A stretch of DNA of 36,300 nucleotides from an uncultured Opitutia bacterium (GTDB lineage: Bacteria; Verrucomicrobiota; Verrucomicrobiia; Opitutales; UBA953): NCBI GenBank assembly GCA_903913915.1, contig CAIWNE010000069.1, positions 1 to 36,300 on the forward strand. Reading direction: 5' to 3'. Positions 234 to 20,110 of the stretch are shown one piece after another. A program made the position numbers and the translations under genes. The notes below the pieces were generated by a model, which worked only from the letters and a program-made list of their open reading frames with translations, did no database searches and was not told the origin of the DNA. The number at the start of each line of letters is the position of its first letter. Positions within the stretch are counted from its first letter, which is position 1.

Positions 234-261
234 AGGACAGCACGTGGTGCTGTCCCTACCT
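234..261 (-). repeat. REP palindrome, GGTAGGG foot, family A
   Basis: On the minus strand the copy reads GGTAGGGACAGCAC, CAC, GTGCTGTCCT: 9-base arms GGACAGCAC/GTGCTGTCC around a three-base loop. The same palindrome recurs at 8006, 8572, 13976, 19980 and 20084. The TAG of its foot is the stop codon of the M48 protease gene (256-258). Confidence 0.85.
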
Positions 262-2160
262 GTTCAGGCCGGTCGCGAAGCTGATGCCGAGCGAATCGGC
301 GACGGCGCGCACGATCTCGACTTCGGCGGGCTCAGCCTTGCCGTCGTTCAGCATGGCCACGCCGCAGGCGCGGACGAATTTTCGGCGATCGTAGACGCTC
401 TGGCTGGCGATGACGGCCAAGGCGTCGTCCACCTTCTGCAGGTCGACCTGGTCCGCCGGCAGGATCGCCGAGCTGACGCCGATCAAGCCCAAGGCGCCGA
501 CGCCGAACTGATAGGCCCGCGCCTGCTCCTCGGGCGGCTCGCTGGAGGTCCTCACGACGGCCGAAAGCACGAGACCGCAGGCCGCCGGCAGGTCACCCTC
601 GCGAGGTACGAGGTGCTGCTCCTTGGAAAGATACCTCCACATCGACGCCTGGATCAGCAGCACGACCAGTCCGTCCTCGGCATCGTAGCCGACCTTCTCG
701 ATCGCGAGACGGAAGAGGGCTTGCTGCTCCGGCGAGAGCTGACGCAGGGCCGGCATGGAAAGGTCGAGCAGCGGCACGCGCGAACCCGCCGGCAGCTCAC
801 GCAGGCGAGGCTCGAACCTTTCCGCTTCACGGGAGACTTCGCCTCCGGCGAGCCCGCGGGCCTGCTCGAGCTGGGCGGCGCGCAACGAGGGGTCGCGACG
901 GAGCAGCAGCCCAAGGACCAGCCCCATCGCGCTGACGGGATCCTGCGAGGCCTCGCGGAGGTCGGTCGGAATCGTACCGCGGAACCCGACCGAATCCTGG
1001 ATCTGGAGATCCGTCGGGGCGGTGCGCACCGTTGAGGGCAGCGGTGGCGGTGCGACCCTGCCCGTCGGCGCAAGCCCAAGCACCGGCTCTTCGGCCGGAA
1101 CTTCGATCGGCATGACGTCGGGAATGATCCCGTCGAAAGCGGGATCGATGAGCCGGATACGTTCGTTGATGGGCGGGTGCGTGGAGAAGAGGAACTCCAT
1201 GAAACCGCCCGAAGACGCGAAGAAGAGGTGCTGTGACTCGAGGTCGGCGTTCGAGCCGGCGCGCTTCGCGCCGGACATCCCGGCGACCTTCTTCAAGGCC
1301 GAGGCCAGACCGAGCGGATTACGCGTGAACTGGACCGCCGAGGCATCCGCGAGGTATTCGCGCTGACGGGAAACGGAGGCTTGGATCACCTTCGCGAAGA
1401 AGACGCCGCCTAGGCCGATGAGCACGACCCCAAGGCCGGCGATCGCGAGGGGCCATGGTCGCGAATTACGGTCGCTATCGCCCGACGTCAGGCCGGTCCG
1501 GATGAGGATGTATCCCAGCTGAGCGAGAGCGGTCAGGCCGGCGACGGCGCCGATGATGCGGAGGCTCAGCTTCATGTCGTCGTTGCCGATATGGCTGAAC
1601 TCGTGGGCGATGACGCCCTGCAGTTCGTCGCGGGTCAGGTGGACGAGCGCGCCGCGGGTGACGCCGATGGCGGCGTCCTGCGGGTCGTTGCCCGCCGCGA
1701 AGGCGTTGATCGTGGCGTCGCCGTCGATGACGTAGCACAGCGGGACGGGCAGGCTCGCCGCGAGGGCGATCTCCTGCACGACGTTGAGGTAACGACGTTC
1801 GGCGAGGTCGGTCGTGTTCGCGCCGACCAGACGGCCGCCGAGACGTTCCGCGATGGCGCCGCCGCCCTTGGCGAGTTCGGCGATACGCAACAGGCTGCCG
1901 CCGACGATGACGAGCAACGCCAGGCCCGTCGTGAAAAAGAAGAGCTTCGGCTGGACCCAGTCGTGCGGCCCGTCGCCGAAGACGATCGTCGACCGATGGC
2001 GGAAGCCCGTCGGCACCGTGTGGAAATCGCCGAGCAGGACGCCGACCACGTAGAGCGAACCCGTCAGGACCAGGATCGCCAACACGAGCAGCACGAGCAG
2101 CTTGGTCGTGCGTCCGCGGGCCTCATCCTGGGCCCGGAAGAAATTCATCGTATCGGCCAT
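256..2160 (-). CDS. M48 family membrane zinc metalloprotease with long C-terminal extension
   Basis: A 634-residue membrane-bound endopeptidase of the HtpX/M48 family, expected to cut membrane or misfolded proteins with its active site facing the cytoplasm. The zinc motif HEFSH is at residues 186-190. The third ligand is probably the Glu of REYLADASA near residue 270. Hydrophobic segments lie at about 20-44, 73-95, 203-225 and 234-258. The family core is about 290-350 residues. Here a further stretch of roughly 300 residues follows, Pro-rich at first and then helical and Leu/Ala-rich, with no domain I recognise. It is the last gene of a lemA / membrane protein / M48 set, 15 bases after its neighbour, and LemA-M48 pairing is common in bacteria. 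The stop codon TAG is contributed by a REP element. Confidence 0.88.
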   Translation of the reverse strand: MADTMNFFRAQDEARGRTTKLLVLLVLAILVLTGSLYVVGVLLGDFHTVPTGFRHRSTIVFGDGPHDWVQPKLFFFTTGLALLVIVGGSLLRIAELAKGGGAIAERLGGRLVGANTTDLAERRYLNVVQEIALAASLPVPLCYVIDGDATINAFAAGNDPQDAAIGVTRGALVHLTRDELQGVIAHEFSHIGNDDMKLSLRIIGAVAGLTALAQLGYILIRTGLTSGDSDRNSRPWPLAIAGLGVVLIGLGGVFFAKVIQASVSRQREYLADASAVQFTRNPLGLASALKKVAGMSGAKRAGSNADLESQHLFFASSGGFMEFLFSTHPPINERIRLIDPAFDGIIPDVMPIEVPAEEPVLGLAPTGRVAPPPLPSTVRTAPTDLQIQDSVGFRGTIPTDLREASQDPVSAMGLVLGLLLRRDPSLRAAQLEQARGLAGGEVSREAERFEPRLRELPAGSRVPLLDLSMPALRQLSPEQQALFRLAIEKVGYDAEDGLVVLLIQASMWRYLSKEQHLVPREGDLPAACGLVLSAVVRTSSEPPEEQARAYQFGVGALGLIGVSSAILPADQVDLQKVDDALAVIASQSVYDRRKFVRACGVAMLNDGKAEPAEVEIVRAVADSLGISFATGLNR

Positions 2161-7386: not shown

Positions 7387-7995
7387 ATGGACATCTTTCT
7401 GGCGACGGGCAACGCGCACAAGGCCGAGGAATTCGGACGCATGTTCGCCAAGGCGCGCCTCGACGTCCGCGTGCGCTCCGCGAAGGAACTCGGCGGCATG
7501 CCTTACGTCGAAGAGATCAGCGGCACCTTCAACGGCAACTGCCGCATGAAGGCCGAAGCCCTGCGGGCGATCGCGCCGCGCAAGGCCTGGGTGCTCGCCG
7601 ACGACAGCGGGCTCTGTTGCGATGCGCTGCAGGGCGGTCCCGGCGTCGACTCCGCGATCTACGCCGGCATGGGCGCGACCGACGCGCAGAACCGCGCGAA
7701 ACTTCTCGAGGCGATGAAGAAGGCTCCTCCCCATAAGCGCGGCGCACGCTTCGAATGCCACCTCATCCTCCTCGGACCCAACCAGGAAGTCGGCAAGTTC
7801 GTCGGCCAGTGCTGGGGCAAGATCCTCGAGGCCGAGGTCGGCACCGAGGGCTTCGGCTACGATTCGCTCTTCGTGCCCGCCAACGAGGAACGCACCTTCG
7901 GCGAGCTCAGCCCGGCGAAGAAGGATTCCATCAGCCACCGCGCCAAGGCCTTCCAGCTCATGGCGGCGTGGATGCGGGAGAACGGGGTGGCGTAA
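7387..7995 (+). CDS. rdgB: RdgB/HAM1 family non-canonical purine NTP pyrophosphatase
   Basis: A 202-residue house-cleaning enzyme that hydrolyses ITP, dITP and XTP to the monophosphate and pyrophosphate, keeping deaminated purines out of nucleic acids. The N-terminal substrate loop is ATGNAHKAEEF (6-16). The acidic metal/catalytic stretch is LADDSGLCCDAL (70-81, Asp72-Asp73). The base-recognition region is GFGYDSLFVP. The closing block is FGELSPAKKDSISHRAKAF. Length and order are typical. The start at 7387 puts the conserved 'IFLATGN' directly at the N-terminus. It is divergent from coaB across a repeat-filled gap. A REP palindrome follows 10 bases after the stop. Confidence 0.95.
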   Translation: MDIFLATGNAHKAEEFGRMFAKARLDVRVRSAKELGGMPYVEEISGTFNGNCRMKAEALRAIAPRKAWVLADDSGLCCDALQGGPGVDSAIYAGMGATDAQNRAKLLEAMKKAPPHKRGARFECHLILLGPNQEVGKFVGQCWGKILEAEVGTEGFGYDSLFVPANEERTFGELSPAKKDSISHRAKAFQLMAAWMRENGVA

Positions 7996-8005
7996 GTGGT
8001 CTCGA

Positions 8006-8032
8006 GGTAGGGACAGCACCACGTGCTGTCCT
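8006..8032 (+). repeat. REP palindrome, GGTAGGG foot, family A (left flank of RAYT)
   Basis: GGTAGG precedes arms GGACAGCAC and GTGCTGTCC, which are separated by CAC. It lies 50 bases upstream of the RAYT start and is in inverted orientation to the copy at 8572-8598 on the other side of the gene. Confidence 0.9.
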
Positions 8033-8081
8033 AAGGCATTCCCCTTCTTCCTGAGACTGCCATGCGCCACTTAAGTGCCGC

Positions 8082-8573
8082 ATGCCGTTCTACTCCCGAG
8101 ATTCCCTTCGTAATCGGCGACCGGAGTGGGTCGACGAGTATGATCCGCTCTTCATAACCCTCTGCCATAAGCGGAGAGGAATTCATCACTTTGATAGTCC
8201 CGACGCGTGGCAGCACTTATTAGACGCATGTATGCACGCTAAGAAAGTCGGCCGGTGGAACCCGATGCTGCTTCTGGCTATGCCAGATCACCTGCATATC
8301 ATTGCGAAGATCCCGCGAAACCCCGACATCACCAGCACGCTCGGCGAACTGAAACGCGACTACTCGCATCGCCTAAGGACTGAGTGGCAGAAAGGTGGCT
8401 TCGACCATCGTCTCAGGTCGTACGAGCATTACCTCGAAAAGAGGGACTATATCCTGATGAATCCCGTCAGGGCCGGCTTCATTTTGAAGCCAGCTGATTG
8501 GCCATACTCAGCGTGGTGGAAAACCAAAGGATATGAACAGCCTGAGGGTGTCAGGGAATACTTCGGAGATTAG
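8082..8573 (+). CDS. REP-associated tyrosine transposase (RAYT, Y1/IS200-like HUH nuclease)
   Basis: A 163-residue Y1-type transposase. The HUH motif is MPDHLH (67-72, His70 and His72). The likely catalytic Tyr94 is in LKRDYSHRL. The C-terminal block RDYILMNPVRAGFILKPADW followed by PYSAW is typical of the RAYT branch of the IS200/IS605 superfamily. These enzymes cut single-stranded DNA at REP hairpins through a 5' phosphotyrosine link and are thought to spread REP elements. The gene is flanked by inverted copies of one palindrome (8006-8032 and 8572-8598), as expected for a RAYT with its own REPs. Base composition is clearly less GC-rich than in its neighbours. The TAG stop lies at the edge of the downstream REP. 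The HUH and Tyr residues look intact, so activity is plausible. Confidence 0.92.
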   Translation: MPFYSRDSLRNRRPEWVDEYDPLFITLCHKRRGIHHFDSPDAWQHLLDACMHAKKVGRWNPMLLLAMPDHLHIIAKIPRNPDITSTLGELKRDYSHRLRTEWQKGGFDHRLRSYEHYLEKRDYILMNPVRAGFILKPADWPYSAWWKTKGYEQPEGVREYFGD

Positions 8574-8598
8574 GACAGCACGTGGTGCTGTCCCTACC
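8572..8598 (-). repeat. REP palindrome, GGTAGGG foot, family A (right flank of RAYT)
   Basis: On the minus strand: GGTAGG, then arms GGACAGCAC and GTGCTGTCC around CAC. The inverted partner is at 8006-8032. It begins within the RAYT stop codon and fills the gap to the convergent opcA gene, where it may also act as a terminator-like hairpin. Confidence 0.9.
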
Positions 8599-8610: not shown

Positions 8611-9579
8611 TTAGAAGAACACCGCTTCGGACAAGGCTTCGGGGGCGGCCATCAGCGCGACGCGCTGGGTGACCGGCGCGGACTGGCGGCTGCGCGTGAA
8701 GGTGATGATCGCGCGCGTGCCCTTGTCGGCATGCTCCCAGGAGAAACGGGCGCCGTCGGCGTAGACCCACTCGGCGTCGAGATTGTCGCCGGGCGGCGGC
8801 TGCGGCGAGGTCGCGAACTCGGCGGCGAGGTGCGAACGAGAAAGCCCGGCGCAATGCGTCAGGCAGCCGCGCATCCATTCGAGGAGGCCGGAGGCTTCGC
8901 CCTTGAGGCCGGCGCCGTAGTTGACGGTGACGGAACGCAGGCCGCGGACGAGTTCGGCCGGCGCGTGCGCGGCGAGGAACTGGCCGAGCGCCTGGCGGAC
9001 CGGCAGGCAGCGCGCGACGGCGAGGTCGCGGACGGACTTCGGGTTCGGGAAAGCGAGCTTGAAGAATTCGTCGCCCACGAGCGAGCGATCGGCCACGACG
9101 CGACGGCAGCGCGAGGTCCACGCGAGCCACGGCTTGAACTCATCGACGGTGACGCCATGAGCCCAGACGTTGACCGGAAGGTCGCCTTCGAGCCAGGTGG
9201 ACACGAGCGACTCCAGCTCGGCCGTAGGCGCGCCATGGGCGAGCATGAGCGCCTCGCAGCAACGCTTGCCGCGACGGGACGGGTCGAAGAAGCAGAGGAC
9301 GTTGACCTTGGCCTCGAGCGTAGCGGCGGCCTCGGCGACCGGACGGGCGGCGAGGATGACGAGACGGCAAGGATAGCGCTGGGCGAAACGGATGGCTTCG
9401 TCGAAACGAGCCTGCGCATCCTCGGGCGAGACGCCCGCGCCGAACATCAGCACGAGGTTCATCTGCGAGGCGCGCGCGGCCTCTTCGCCTTCGTCGGCCC
9501 ACGCCTTGTCGAGCGACGGGAGGACGGCGGAGATCTTGACCGGGAAACCCGGGAGCGCGTCGATCAGCGGGTGGGCCAT
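8611..9579 (-). CDS. opcA: glucose-6-phosphate dehydrogenase assembly protein OpcA-like
   Basis: A 322-residue protein resembling OpcA, an allosteric partner needed for assembly or activity of glucose-6-phosphate dehydrogenase in cyanobacteria and actinobacteria. Support is moderate at sequence level: an N-terminal alpha/beta domain with MNLVLMFG and PCRLVILAARPV, a WADEGEEAARASQMNL stretch, then a C-terminal half with WVYADGARFSWEH. Context is strong, since it starts two bases after the zwf stop, the usual arrangement. No catalytic motif or membrane segment is seen. An unrelated protein that happens to be coupled to zwf cannot be excluded. Confidence 0.78.
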   Translation of the reverse strand: MAHPLIDALPGFPVKISAVLPSLDKAWADEGEEAARASQMNLVLMFGAGVSPEDAQARFDEAIRFAQRYPCRLVILAARPVAEAAATLEAKVNVLCFFDPSRRGKRCCEALMLAHGAPTAELESLVSTWLEGDLPVNVWAHGVTVDEFKPWLAWTSRCRRVVADRSLVGDEFFKLAFPNPKSVRDLAVARCLPVRQALGQFLAAHAPAELVRGLRSVTVNYGAGLKGEASGLLEWMRGCLTHCAGLSRSHLAAEFATSPQPPPGDNLDAEWVYADGARFSWEHADKGTRAIITFTRSRQSAPVTQRVALMAAPEALSEAVFF

Positions 9580-12849: not shown

Positions 12850-12905
12850 GGTAGGGCCAAGCATCCCTGCTTGGCCGCGGCCGACCAAGGATGGTCGGCC
12901 CTACC
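12850..12905. repeat. REPIN-like double palindrome, GGTAGGG foot at both ends (family B)
   Basis: Two hairpins back to back: GGTAGGGCCAAGCATCCCTG with CTTGGC, then a CGCG spacer, then GCCGACCAAGGATGGTCGGC and CCTACC. Both outer ends carry the GGTAGGG foot, pointing outward. Near-identical 56-base copies are at 14055, 23644 and 28781, and a half copy at 20008. Confidence 0.85.
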
Positions 12906-13975: not shown

Positions 13976-14002
13976 GGTAGGGACAGCACCACGTGCTGTC
14001 CT
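13976..14002 (+). repeat. REP palindrome, GGTAGGG foot, family A
   Basis: GGTAGG then GGACAGCAC/GTGCTGTCC around CAC, identical in the core to the RAYT-flanking copies. Confidence 0.85.
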
Positions 14003-14019
14003 AGTCTGTTACCTTTGGT

Positions 14020-14050
14020 AGGGTCGGGAACGCGTCACGACATAGCCTGC
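14020..14050 (+). repeat. GTAGGG-footed element, family H
   Basis: TAGGGTCGGGAACGCGTCAC, then GACATAGCCTG. The same sequence with one change occurs in inverted orientation at 20043-20070. It has an imperfect GTCGGGA/TCACGAC stem and begins with the same GTAGGG foot as the other families. Confidence 0.65.
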
Positions 14051-19534: not shown

Positions 19535-19984
19535 ATGAGCACAGCTTCCCACCCTCTTCTCCCCGAAGCCGCCGCCGAGCTCGCCCGCAAAGGCGATACC
19601 GCCGGATTGGCGGCGATGCTCAAGGACGGCCTGGCCGTCGATGCGCAGGACGCCAAAGGCAACACGTTGCTGATGCTGGCGTCTTATCACGGCAAGGCGG
19701 ATACGGTCGCGATGTTGCTCAAGGCCCGCGCCTCGGTCGACCTCCGCAACGCCAAGGGTCAGACGCCCCTCGGCGGCGTGGCTTTCAAGGGCTATGCCGA
19801 CATCGCCACCCTGCTCCTCGACGCCGGGGCGAATCCGCTCGCGGACCAAGGCGGCCAGACACCGGTCGACTACGCCACGATGTTCGGTCGCCAGGAAATC
19901 CTCGTCCTCCTCCGCGAGCGCCGCGGCGCCGCGGCCAAACCGACCCGCTGGTTCAGCAAGCTGATCGGGTGGATCAGGAGGTAG
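19535..19984 (+). CDS. ankyrin repeat protein
   Basis: A 149-residue soluble protein of about three or four ankyrin repeats. Two clear ones are DAKGNTLLMLASYHGKADTV with AMLLKARASVD, and NAKGQTPLGGVAFKGYADIA with TLLLDAGANP. A degenerate last one is GGQTPVDYATMFGRQEILVL. An N-terminal helix pair (LLPEAAAELARKGDTAGLAA) acts as a cap, and the tail is basic (WFSKLIGWIRR). Such proteins mediate protein-protein contacts; no partner can be named. The TAG stop (19982-19984) belongs to the foot of a REP element, so the basic C-terminal end may have been reshaped by the insertion. Confidence 0.87.
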   Translation: MSTASHPLLPEAAAELARKGDTAGLAAMLKDGLAVDAQDAKGNTLLMLASYHGKADTVAMLLKARASVDLRNAKGQTPLGGVAFKGYADIATLLLDAGANPLADQGGQTPVDYATMFGRQEILVLLRERRGAAAKPTRWFSKLIGWIRR

Positions 19985-20006
19985 GGACAGCACCACGTGC
20001 TGTCCT
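19980..20006 (+). repeat. REP palindrome, GGTAGGG foot, family A
   Basis: GGTAGG, GGACAGCAC, CAC, GTGCTGTCC. The TAG is the ankyrin gene stop codon. It pairs with an inverted-foot copy at 20084-20110 to form a compound element. Confidence 0.88.
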
Positions 20007-20007
20007 C

Positions 20008-20036
20008 GCGGCCGACCAAGGATGGTCGGCCCTACC
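20008..20036 (-). repeat. half of a family B REPIN
   Basis: GCGGCCGACCAAGGATGGTC, then GGCCCTACC: the right half of the 56-base element, joined directly to a family A palindrome in place of the usual left half. Confidence 0.75.
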
Positions 20037-20042
20037 CGGCAC

Positions 20043-20070
20043 AGGCTATGTCGTGACGCGATCCCGACCC
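20043..20070 (-). repeat. family H element, inverted copy
   Basis: CAGGCTATGTCGTGACGCGA, then TCCCGACC: reverse complement, with one change, of 14022-14050. Confidence 0.65.
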
Positions 20071-20083
20071 ACCCCATCGCAGA

Positions 20084-20110
20084 AGGACAGCACCACGTGC
20101 TGTCCCTACC
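20084..20110 (-). repeat. REP palindrome, GGTAGGG foot, family A
   Basis: The foot (CCTACC on the plus strand) is at the right end, but the loop reads CAC on the plus strand, unlike the other minus-oriented copies (234 and 8572), which read GTG. This looks like inversion or recombination at the palindrome. Confidence 0.85.

Follow-up and report, generated by a model that had tools for sequence, protein, structure and literature searches.

The RAYT locus and its surroundings

The window, by which we mean the whole stretch of 36,300 nucleotides that was analysed, forms contig C69 of a draft genome of 2.53 Mb (148 contigs, 94% complete). It carries a gene for a REP-associated tyrosine transposase (RAYT, or TnpAREP), framed by two inverted REPs that we named A type and lying between two genes in what we call the rdgB-opcA slot. 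The features of the slot and the dispersed REPs in the window are:

7387-7995, + strand: rdgB-like gene, left border of the slot
8006-8031, + strand: left REP, A type, GTAG foot outward, ending 50 bp upstream of the RAYT ATG
8082-8573, + strand: RAYT/TnpAREP gene, 163 aa, with the HUH motif H70-L-H72 and the putative nucleophile Tyr123
8573-8598, - strand: right REP, A type, GTAG foot outward, exact inverted copy of the left REP
8611-9579, - strand: opcA-like gene, right border of the slot
235-260, - strand: dispersed REP, exact copy of GGTAGGGACAGCACCACGTGCTGTCC
13976-14001, + strand: dispersed REP, exact copy of GGTAGGGACAGCACCACGTGCTGTCC
19980-20005, + strand: dispersed REP, exact copy of GGTAGGGACAGCACCACGTGCTGTCC
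20085-20110, - strand: REP-like copy with 3 mismatches, loop reversed relative to the foot

The neighbouring genes are presumably rdgB, opcA and zwf, and these names are used below on that assumption. The right REP and the RAYT gene overlap by one base, since the final base of the stop codon TAG is also the inner end of the REP. The original prediction, made from the letters of the window, placed a RAYT between inverted REP copies whose GTAG foot adjoins the hairpin and faces outward; both flanking REPs are indeed exact 26-mers arranged in this way. It also listed four dispersed copies, three of which are exact, whereas the one at 20085-20110 is not a standard REP copy because its loop is reversed.

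Close relatives of the RAYT stand in two named records, at 85% identity in an Opitutales MAG and at 82% in an uncultured Opitutae MAG, and the DNA of these records is identical to loci from two genomes of our comparison, G044 and G048. Two further RAYT genes were noticed in the same genome as the window, at G000:C33:69914-70330 (L079) and G000:C70:36489-36920 (L081). They are 36-37% identical to the window RAYT, and each has different REPs of its own.

Family, fold and predicted nucleophile of the RAYT

The NCBIfam model NF047646 (REP-associated tyrosine transposase) matched residues 22-143 with 72.8 bits (E 2.6e-20) against a cut-off of 80, which is a naming threshold and no biological feature. 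The score was 22.3 against a cut-off of 23 for Pfam PF01797 (Y1_Tnp), and 12.4 against 55 for NF033573 (IS200). A sequence search of the PDB (E up to 1) returned a sole match, the TnpAREP structure 4er8 (E 6e-13). We also built an AF2 model with 37 family members as input (mean pLDDT 88), for which Foldseek again gave 4er8 as the top fold match (E 1e-10), the IS608 and ISDra2 transposases ranking lower.

Residue conservation was scored in an alignment (A1) of 37 RAYTs out of 59 loci. T26, H70, W102, Q103, F107-R110 (including D108 and H109), Y123, N127 and P128 were invariant in 37/37, and H72 and R112 were conserved in at least 90%. Tyr94, originally named as the catalytic residue, was ruled out as the nucleophile, because position 94 is variable among the 37 proteins while Tyr123, part of YILMNP, does not vary and lines up with the YIYINP motif of 4er8. 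The predicted catalytic nucleophile is Tyr123, not Tyr94. The HUH pair His70 and His72, described as intact, is so by the same alignment.

According to the part of PMC6006769 available to us, the E. coli residues that contact GTAG are W94, Q95, E100, H101 and R104. They align with W102, Q103, D108, H109 and R112 of the window RAYT and are thus kept, except that D108 replaces E100, an exchange known in subclasses including 2.5 and 2.7 (PMC6006769, in part). Two motifs described in the accessible text of PMC2817692 as confined to RAYTs, a conserved N-terminal Thr and NP(L/V)(R/K)xG, are present as T26 and as NPVRAG at 127-132. The family match, the 4er8 fold and the GTAG-contacting residues, together with the inverted flanking REPs and the copies across the genome, bear out the view of a RAYT with dispersed REPs.

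In the excerpt of PMC6006769 that contains Table 1, group 3 (subclass 2.5) is characterized by DH[LF]H, WQ, YI[VI]ANP, a median length of 151 aa and a short REP. The window locus matches in DHLH, WQ and the short perfect REP, and in part in YILMNP and 163 aa; judged by motif only, Bertels group 3 would be the closest group.

The A-type REP and its copies in the genome

The A-type REP is the 26-mer GGTAGGGACAGCACCACGTGCTGTCC, which consists of a GTAG foot and a 9-bp perfect palindrome with a 3-nt loop. Genome-wide we counted 21 exact copies, 30 at ≤2 mismatches and 38 at ≤3 mismatches, the last count including two exact copies of a related REP, the G type, while the same pattern read backwards as a control gave 0. 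The palindrome is therefore not rare, whereas its confinement to a handful of places had been named as the outcome that would refute the original prediction. In the window, the single arm GGACAGCAC (≤1 mismatch) occurred 21 times against a shuffle mean of 9.63 (sd 3.15, largest 16; 100 shuffles).

To the base context, 29 of the 30 copies at ≤2 mismatches contributed, one near a contig end being omitted. The base directly after the hairpin was T in 29/29, the base preceding GGTAG was A in 83%, and conservation dropped just beyond these two positions. Since conservation falls off just outside the REP, its dispersal looks like that of single REPs; close inverted A-A pairs were few (C7 1281/1350, C124 3564/3638).

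The short perfect hairpin, the 3-nt loop and the adjoining CT resemble the group 3 REP of Stenotrophomonas maltophilia, given in the available part of PMC8266576 as an 8-bp perfect palindrome with a 3-nt loop and cleavage at CT; the TnpAREP proteins that have been studied cleave at a CT next to the hairpin. DHLH and WQ also agree with subclass 2.5 (PMC6006769, in part). The differences from group 3 as there described are YILMNP instead of YI[VI]ANP and a stem of 9 bp instead of 8 bp.

We compared the dispersed REPs of the window with the aligned places in relatives. The REP at 235-260 was found in all three relatives with anchors there (G029, G053 and G044; five others had none); its GTAG foot contains the TAG stop of a 634-aa ORF at 256-2160 (- strand). 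No REP lay at the place of 13976-14001 in the five comparable relatives (G029, G053, G032, G026 and G068). The REP at 19980-20005 was present in G029, a decayed partial copy in G032 and none in G026. The REP-like copy at 20085-20110 was missing from G029 at the aligned place; there, the window has a 36-nt stretch that directly follows a GGTAG also present in G029. These single-site differences fit insertion beside GTAG, as single cases without proof value.

Further GTAG-footed hairpins, at 12851 and 12904, at about 14017-14041 and at 20006-20080, are of other REP types, so that several REP families share one window. One of these hairpins resembles the REP found beside the RAYTs of the L060/L050 clade.

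RAYT clades and REP types in the family and genus

Relatives of the window RAYT were found by protein search in 34 of the 79 genomes of the family, and RAYT-like matches in 136 of 276 sampled genomes of the order. From 63 protein matches we obtained 58 loci by omitting the four weakest (G072, two in G007, and G042:C11) and merging a second piece (G042:C107); a Pfam match of 22% identity (L097) brought the set to 59 loci. Outward GTAG hairpins lay on both sides at 41 of these Y1-transposase loci, on one side at 13 and on neither at 5, some loci being truncated by contig ends. With the same finder, 3 of 2000 random intervals had hairpins on both sides and 128 on one; the random intervals are not gene-adjacent, and the contrast of 41/59 with 3/2000 is somewhat flattered. 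The finder is blind to imperfect REPs: at two of the loci without a hairpin (L060, L050, L076, L096 and L097), namely L060 and L050, imperfect copies of GGTAGGGTCGGGACCGCGTCACGAC were seen by eye on both sides.

The protein tree comprised 49 rows, ten of the 59 loci being left out as short, broken or distant. A-, G- and T-type REPs are told apart by paired changes within the same stem, and each type, matched by inspection, corresponds to one protein clade (SH-aLRT 89 for 7 A rows, 99 for 4 T rows and 99 for 5 G rows). More distant RAYT clades, again by inspection, have other REP stems. In this genus, RAYT clades, as matched by inspection, go with their own REP sequences, and by our reading of the tree there are more than ten clades with differing REP sequence.

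REP copy number and RAYT carriage

Exact A-type REPs numbered 436 in 40 of the 55 genomes of the genus, and exact G-type REPs 385 in 41 of the 55. At ≤3 mismatches, which admits exact G-type copies, the A pattern was found in 44 of the 55, and in 1 of 24 genomes of the family's other genera. Among A-RAYT carriers, exact A-type copies amounted to 21 in the genome of the window, 18 in G025, 34 in G029, 37 in G044, 9 in G048, 18 in G057 and 22 in G068, giving a median of 21 (n=7) against 4.5 (maximum 29) in the other 48 genomes (p=9e-5, ancestry ignored). The G-RAYT carriers likewise had more exact G-type copies (G041 28, G043 11, G046 23, G047 30, G051 32 and G029 9) than the other 49 genomes, with a median of 3 (p=3e-4, ancestry ignored). 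The A/(A+G) fraction ranged from 0.39 to 0.91 in six A-only carriers and from 0.07 to 0.42 in five G-only carriers (p=0.004, ancestry ignored).

For a phylogeny-aware test, we used independent pairs on a host tree of 40 rows. Of six pairs for the A type, a mean of 3.1 to 4.9 went the expected way and 0 to 1 the opposite way, with a median p of 0.06-0.25, both depending on the threshold. For the G type, 1.0 to 2.0 of four pairs agreed with expectation and none ran counter to it (p 0.5-1). The direction of the carrier excess therefore holds, but it is not significant once ancestry is counted. Some genomes without the corresponding RAYT detected had many copies, namely G076 (29) and G042 (25) for the A type and G068 (34) and G031 (24) for the G type. 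Some of these cases are incomplete genomes (G076, 64%). In G031 (91% complete), neither the search of the family nor that of the order gave a RAYT match. The comparison of relatives, proposed earlier as a check, thus came out in the expected direction before ancestry was considered and was tempered by ancestry and by non-carriers with high counts. REPs abundant without their RAYT are reported in the accessible text of PMC3686654 for pseudomonads and stenotrophomonads too.

The rdgB-opcA slot in related genomes

We found rdgB matches in 42 genomes; G030 and G052 were left out as poor or partial, and several of the remaining 40 end before opcA. A RAYT gene with its two flanking REPs, a REPtron, of A type occupies the slot in one orientation in six genomes (that of the window, G044, G048, G029, G057 and G068), its feet lying 75-76 bp upstream of the coding region and 27 bp past the last codon, with one foot, in G048, being GCAG. 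The idea that all seven A-type REPtrons sit in the slot was rejected (6/7), since that of G025 is separated from opcA by about 1.2 kb, has other genes as neighbours and is encoded on the opcA strand.

Other genomes differ. The rdgB of G047 is nearly identical to those of G057 and G068 (no branch longer than 0.0014), and its slot contains a G-type REPtron in the opposite orientation, with a RAYT 54% identical to that of the window. The left A-type REP in G047 is broken off after GGTAGGGACAGCACCAC, and a partial G-type REP is retained on the right side of the slot in G057. The G047 contig belongs to a draft genome, measures 5.8 kb and ends some 0.2-0.3 kb past the REPtron; the extra bases TATC at its left join make an assembly error somewhat less likely without excluding one. 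We did not press TATC at the joins as an element boundary, as its three cases come from related genomes. G027 lacks a RAYT in the slot, where a perfect hairpin with two feet, GGTAGGGACAGCACCACGTGCTGTCCCTACC, has flanks that resemble those of the window. G035, G051 and G043 have just half a REP, the first half, while G053 and G065 have REP pairs of other types, partly degenerate in G065. The remaining genomes, a number of them within the carriers' clade, have unrelated or very short spacers.

A search with a degenerate pattern (≤1 mismatch) found two-footed REPs at 16 places, 10 of them without mismatch, in 13 of the 79 genomes. All belong to the genus of the window, none lies in the window's own genome, and only that of G027 is tied to the slot. 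In the host tree, the genomes with a half REP or a two-footed REP branch off outside those that carry the REPtron; these states may therefore be what is left of a lost REPtron, or else an older REP that was there first. With G025 excluded, the A-type REPtron at or near the slot requires no fewer than 3 changes on supported branches, and 6 when G025, whose copy lies outside the slot itself, is included. Taken together, the comparison of relatives suggests that the framed RAYT gene can be lost from, or swapped at, a chromosomal slot. The breaks fall in REP loops or arms, and the RAYT, slippage between palindromes and inter-strain recombination can each produce them.

Selection on the RAYT gene

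Among 15 carrier pairs, RAYT dS was finite in 7 (6 distinct, G057 being the same as G068), saturated in 7 and zero in 1. In the 6 distinct pairs dN/dS was 0.05-0.12, a rough figure with some dS values above 1, which means, for the pairs with finite dS, that the RAYT is under purifying selection. Where finite, its dS was about 2- to 4-fold above that of rdgB, opcA and zwf; with dS thus raised or saturated, descent at the site need not have been strictly vertical. RAYT GC3 was 0.64 against 0.88-0.94 in the neighbours, and lower GC3 and exchange between strains are possible causes of the raised dS. A RAYT identity below that of neighbouring proteins is also described in the accessible text of PMC2817692. 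The earlier notion of a domesticated transposase is plausible, given the same site in six genomes and the low dN/dS, but it is unproven.

Interpretation of the locus

We consider, with a probability of about 0.9, that the locus is a REPtron, namely a single-copy Y1 HUH RAYT/TnpAREP gene with two cognate REPs and about 30 to 38 dispersed copies. The flanking hairpin is probably recognised by the window RAYT. By homology, the protein would bind the single-stranded REP as GTAG plus the 9-bp perfect hairpin with its 3-nt loop, and would cleave at the CT directly after the hairpin, the T of which every copy examined retains. Strand transfer would then seed new REPs over evolutionary time, as copy number and site differences between relatives suggest. 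The gene itself would stay mostly static at one site under purifying selection and, as the junctions in relatives indicate, would occasionally be lost or swapped for another RAYT-REP unit through breaks inside REPs; the agent may be the RAYT, replication slippage or recombination. Weighing against this reading are the NF047646 and PF01797 scores just short of their cut-offs, the genomes with many REPs and no corresponding RAYT detected, the loss of significance of the carrier excess once ancestry is counted, and the raised or saturated RAYT dS.

An ordinary IS200/IS605-type insertion sequence, transposing and multiplying as a unit with the REPs as its terminal hairpins, would share the HUH/Y1 fold and have hairpins at both ends, and the different unit in the same slot of G047 could be read in its favour. 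It is nevertheless very improbable here: no near-identical second copy was found in the genome, the two other matches being those of 36-37% identity; YILMNP is of RAYT type rather than the IS200 Y---Q motif (PMC6006769, in part); the NF033573 score is far below its cut-off; and the ends are formed by inverted REPs that also occur dispersed as solo copies. It is hardly credible that the palindromes are ordinary intrinsic terminators, or RNA hairpins under selection at the ends of genes, whose position next to a RAYT is incidental, even though two hairpins in the window abut stop codons. An identical 26-nt sequence including the GTAG foot recurs at 21 places, hairpins flank RAYTs on both sides far above the random control, and the sole Rfam match in the window, a tRNA, lies at another place; the tie of stem sequence to RAYT clade refutes this explanation in part.

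A further alternative concerns only the mechanism at the slot and is compatible with the locus being a REPtron. Replication slippage together with homologous recombination, without a role of the RAYT, has in our judgement an even chance of accounting for the differences in G047, G027 and the half-REP genomes. REPs are palindromic and hence near-direct repeats of each other, the breaks fall within loops or arms, short words such as CGTG are shared near the joins (by eye), and deletion by slippage requires no enzyme. Slippage alone, however, leaves the inverted second REPtron in the slot unexplained, as well as the three REP-in-REP joins, from the related G047 and G057, that resume with TATC. 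It is a tentative, rather doubtful idea that the REPtrons of this genus are exchangeable cassettes, cut out between their REPs or replaced at a GTAG-footed slot with the RAYT taking part. We regard it as similarly speculative that excision would leave a two-footed fused REP and that replacement would be by another REPtron or a REPIN. Were REPtrons such cassettes, the view that they do not move as units would have to be revised.

Comparison with known REPtrons

The REPtron of the window resembles those of Stenotrophomonas and Pseudomonas, as described in the available parts of PMC2817692 and PMC3686654, in that the RAYT lies between two inverted GTAG REPs, RAYT and REP co-vary, the chromosomal position is conserved, the protein changes faster than its neighbours, and REPs may outlast the RAYT and be abundant without it. 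It differs in belonging to another phylum, and its some 30-38 copies stand at the low end compared with the 37-427 perfect copies given there for Stenotrophomonas. In the orthoswitch described in the published text available, the REP class changes and the RAYT is orthologous, whereas here a sister genome holds a non-orthologous, inverted RAYT-REP unit. Within the same phylum, Opitutus terrae is rich in GTAG repeats according to the accessible part of PMC3733652; these GTAG-tagged palindromes of Verrucomicrobia are likened to ours by description, not by REP sequence, and that part does not describe the rdgB-opcA slot. Excision of REP doublets has been published for gammaproteobacteria (PMC3116915, in part).

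The main features of the locus are already published for gammaproteobacteria, and the fresh part is the rdgB-opcA slot. In the open-access literature, as far as its text was available, we found neither a slot at which a whole RAYT-REP unit had given way to a non-orthologous one in inverse orientation nor an interpretation of a two-footed REP as the trace of a lost REPtron. The well-studied RAYT/REP pattern is hereby extended to a genus with many RAYT clades, which offers a natural data set on specificity and co-evolution. Since the slot is occupied, swapped or emptied in related genomes, loss, gain and replacement of RAYT units become directly testable.

Other elements near rdgB

Several further elements were observed around the slot. 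A second slot lies about 4.1-4.7 kb downstream of rdgB, beyond zwf, and contains a G-type REPtron in G043, G051, G046, G041 (cut by the contig end) and G029, while other genomes, including that of the window, have other REPs there. A palindromic filler, AAAGGGAGACCGG...GGTCTCCCTTTG, recurs in the rdgB-opcA spacer of G042, G062, G046, G034 and G069 and in other spacers (G026, G029), and is possibly another miniature element. At L140 and L142 (G057 and G068), an extra stretch of about 1.35 kb, followed by a degenerate REP, lies between the REPtron and opcA, placed as if it had been carried between REPs.
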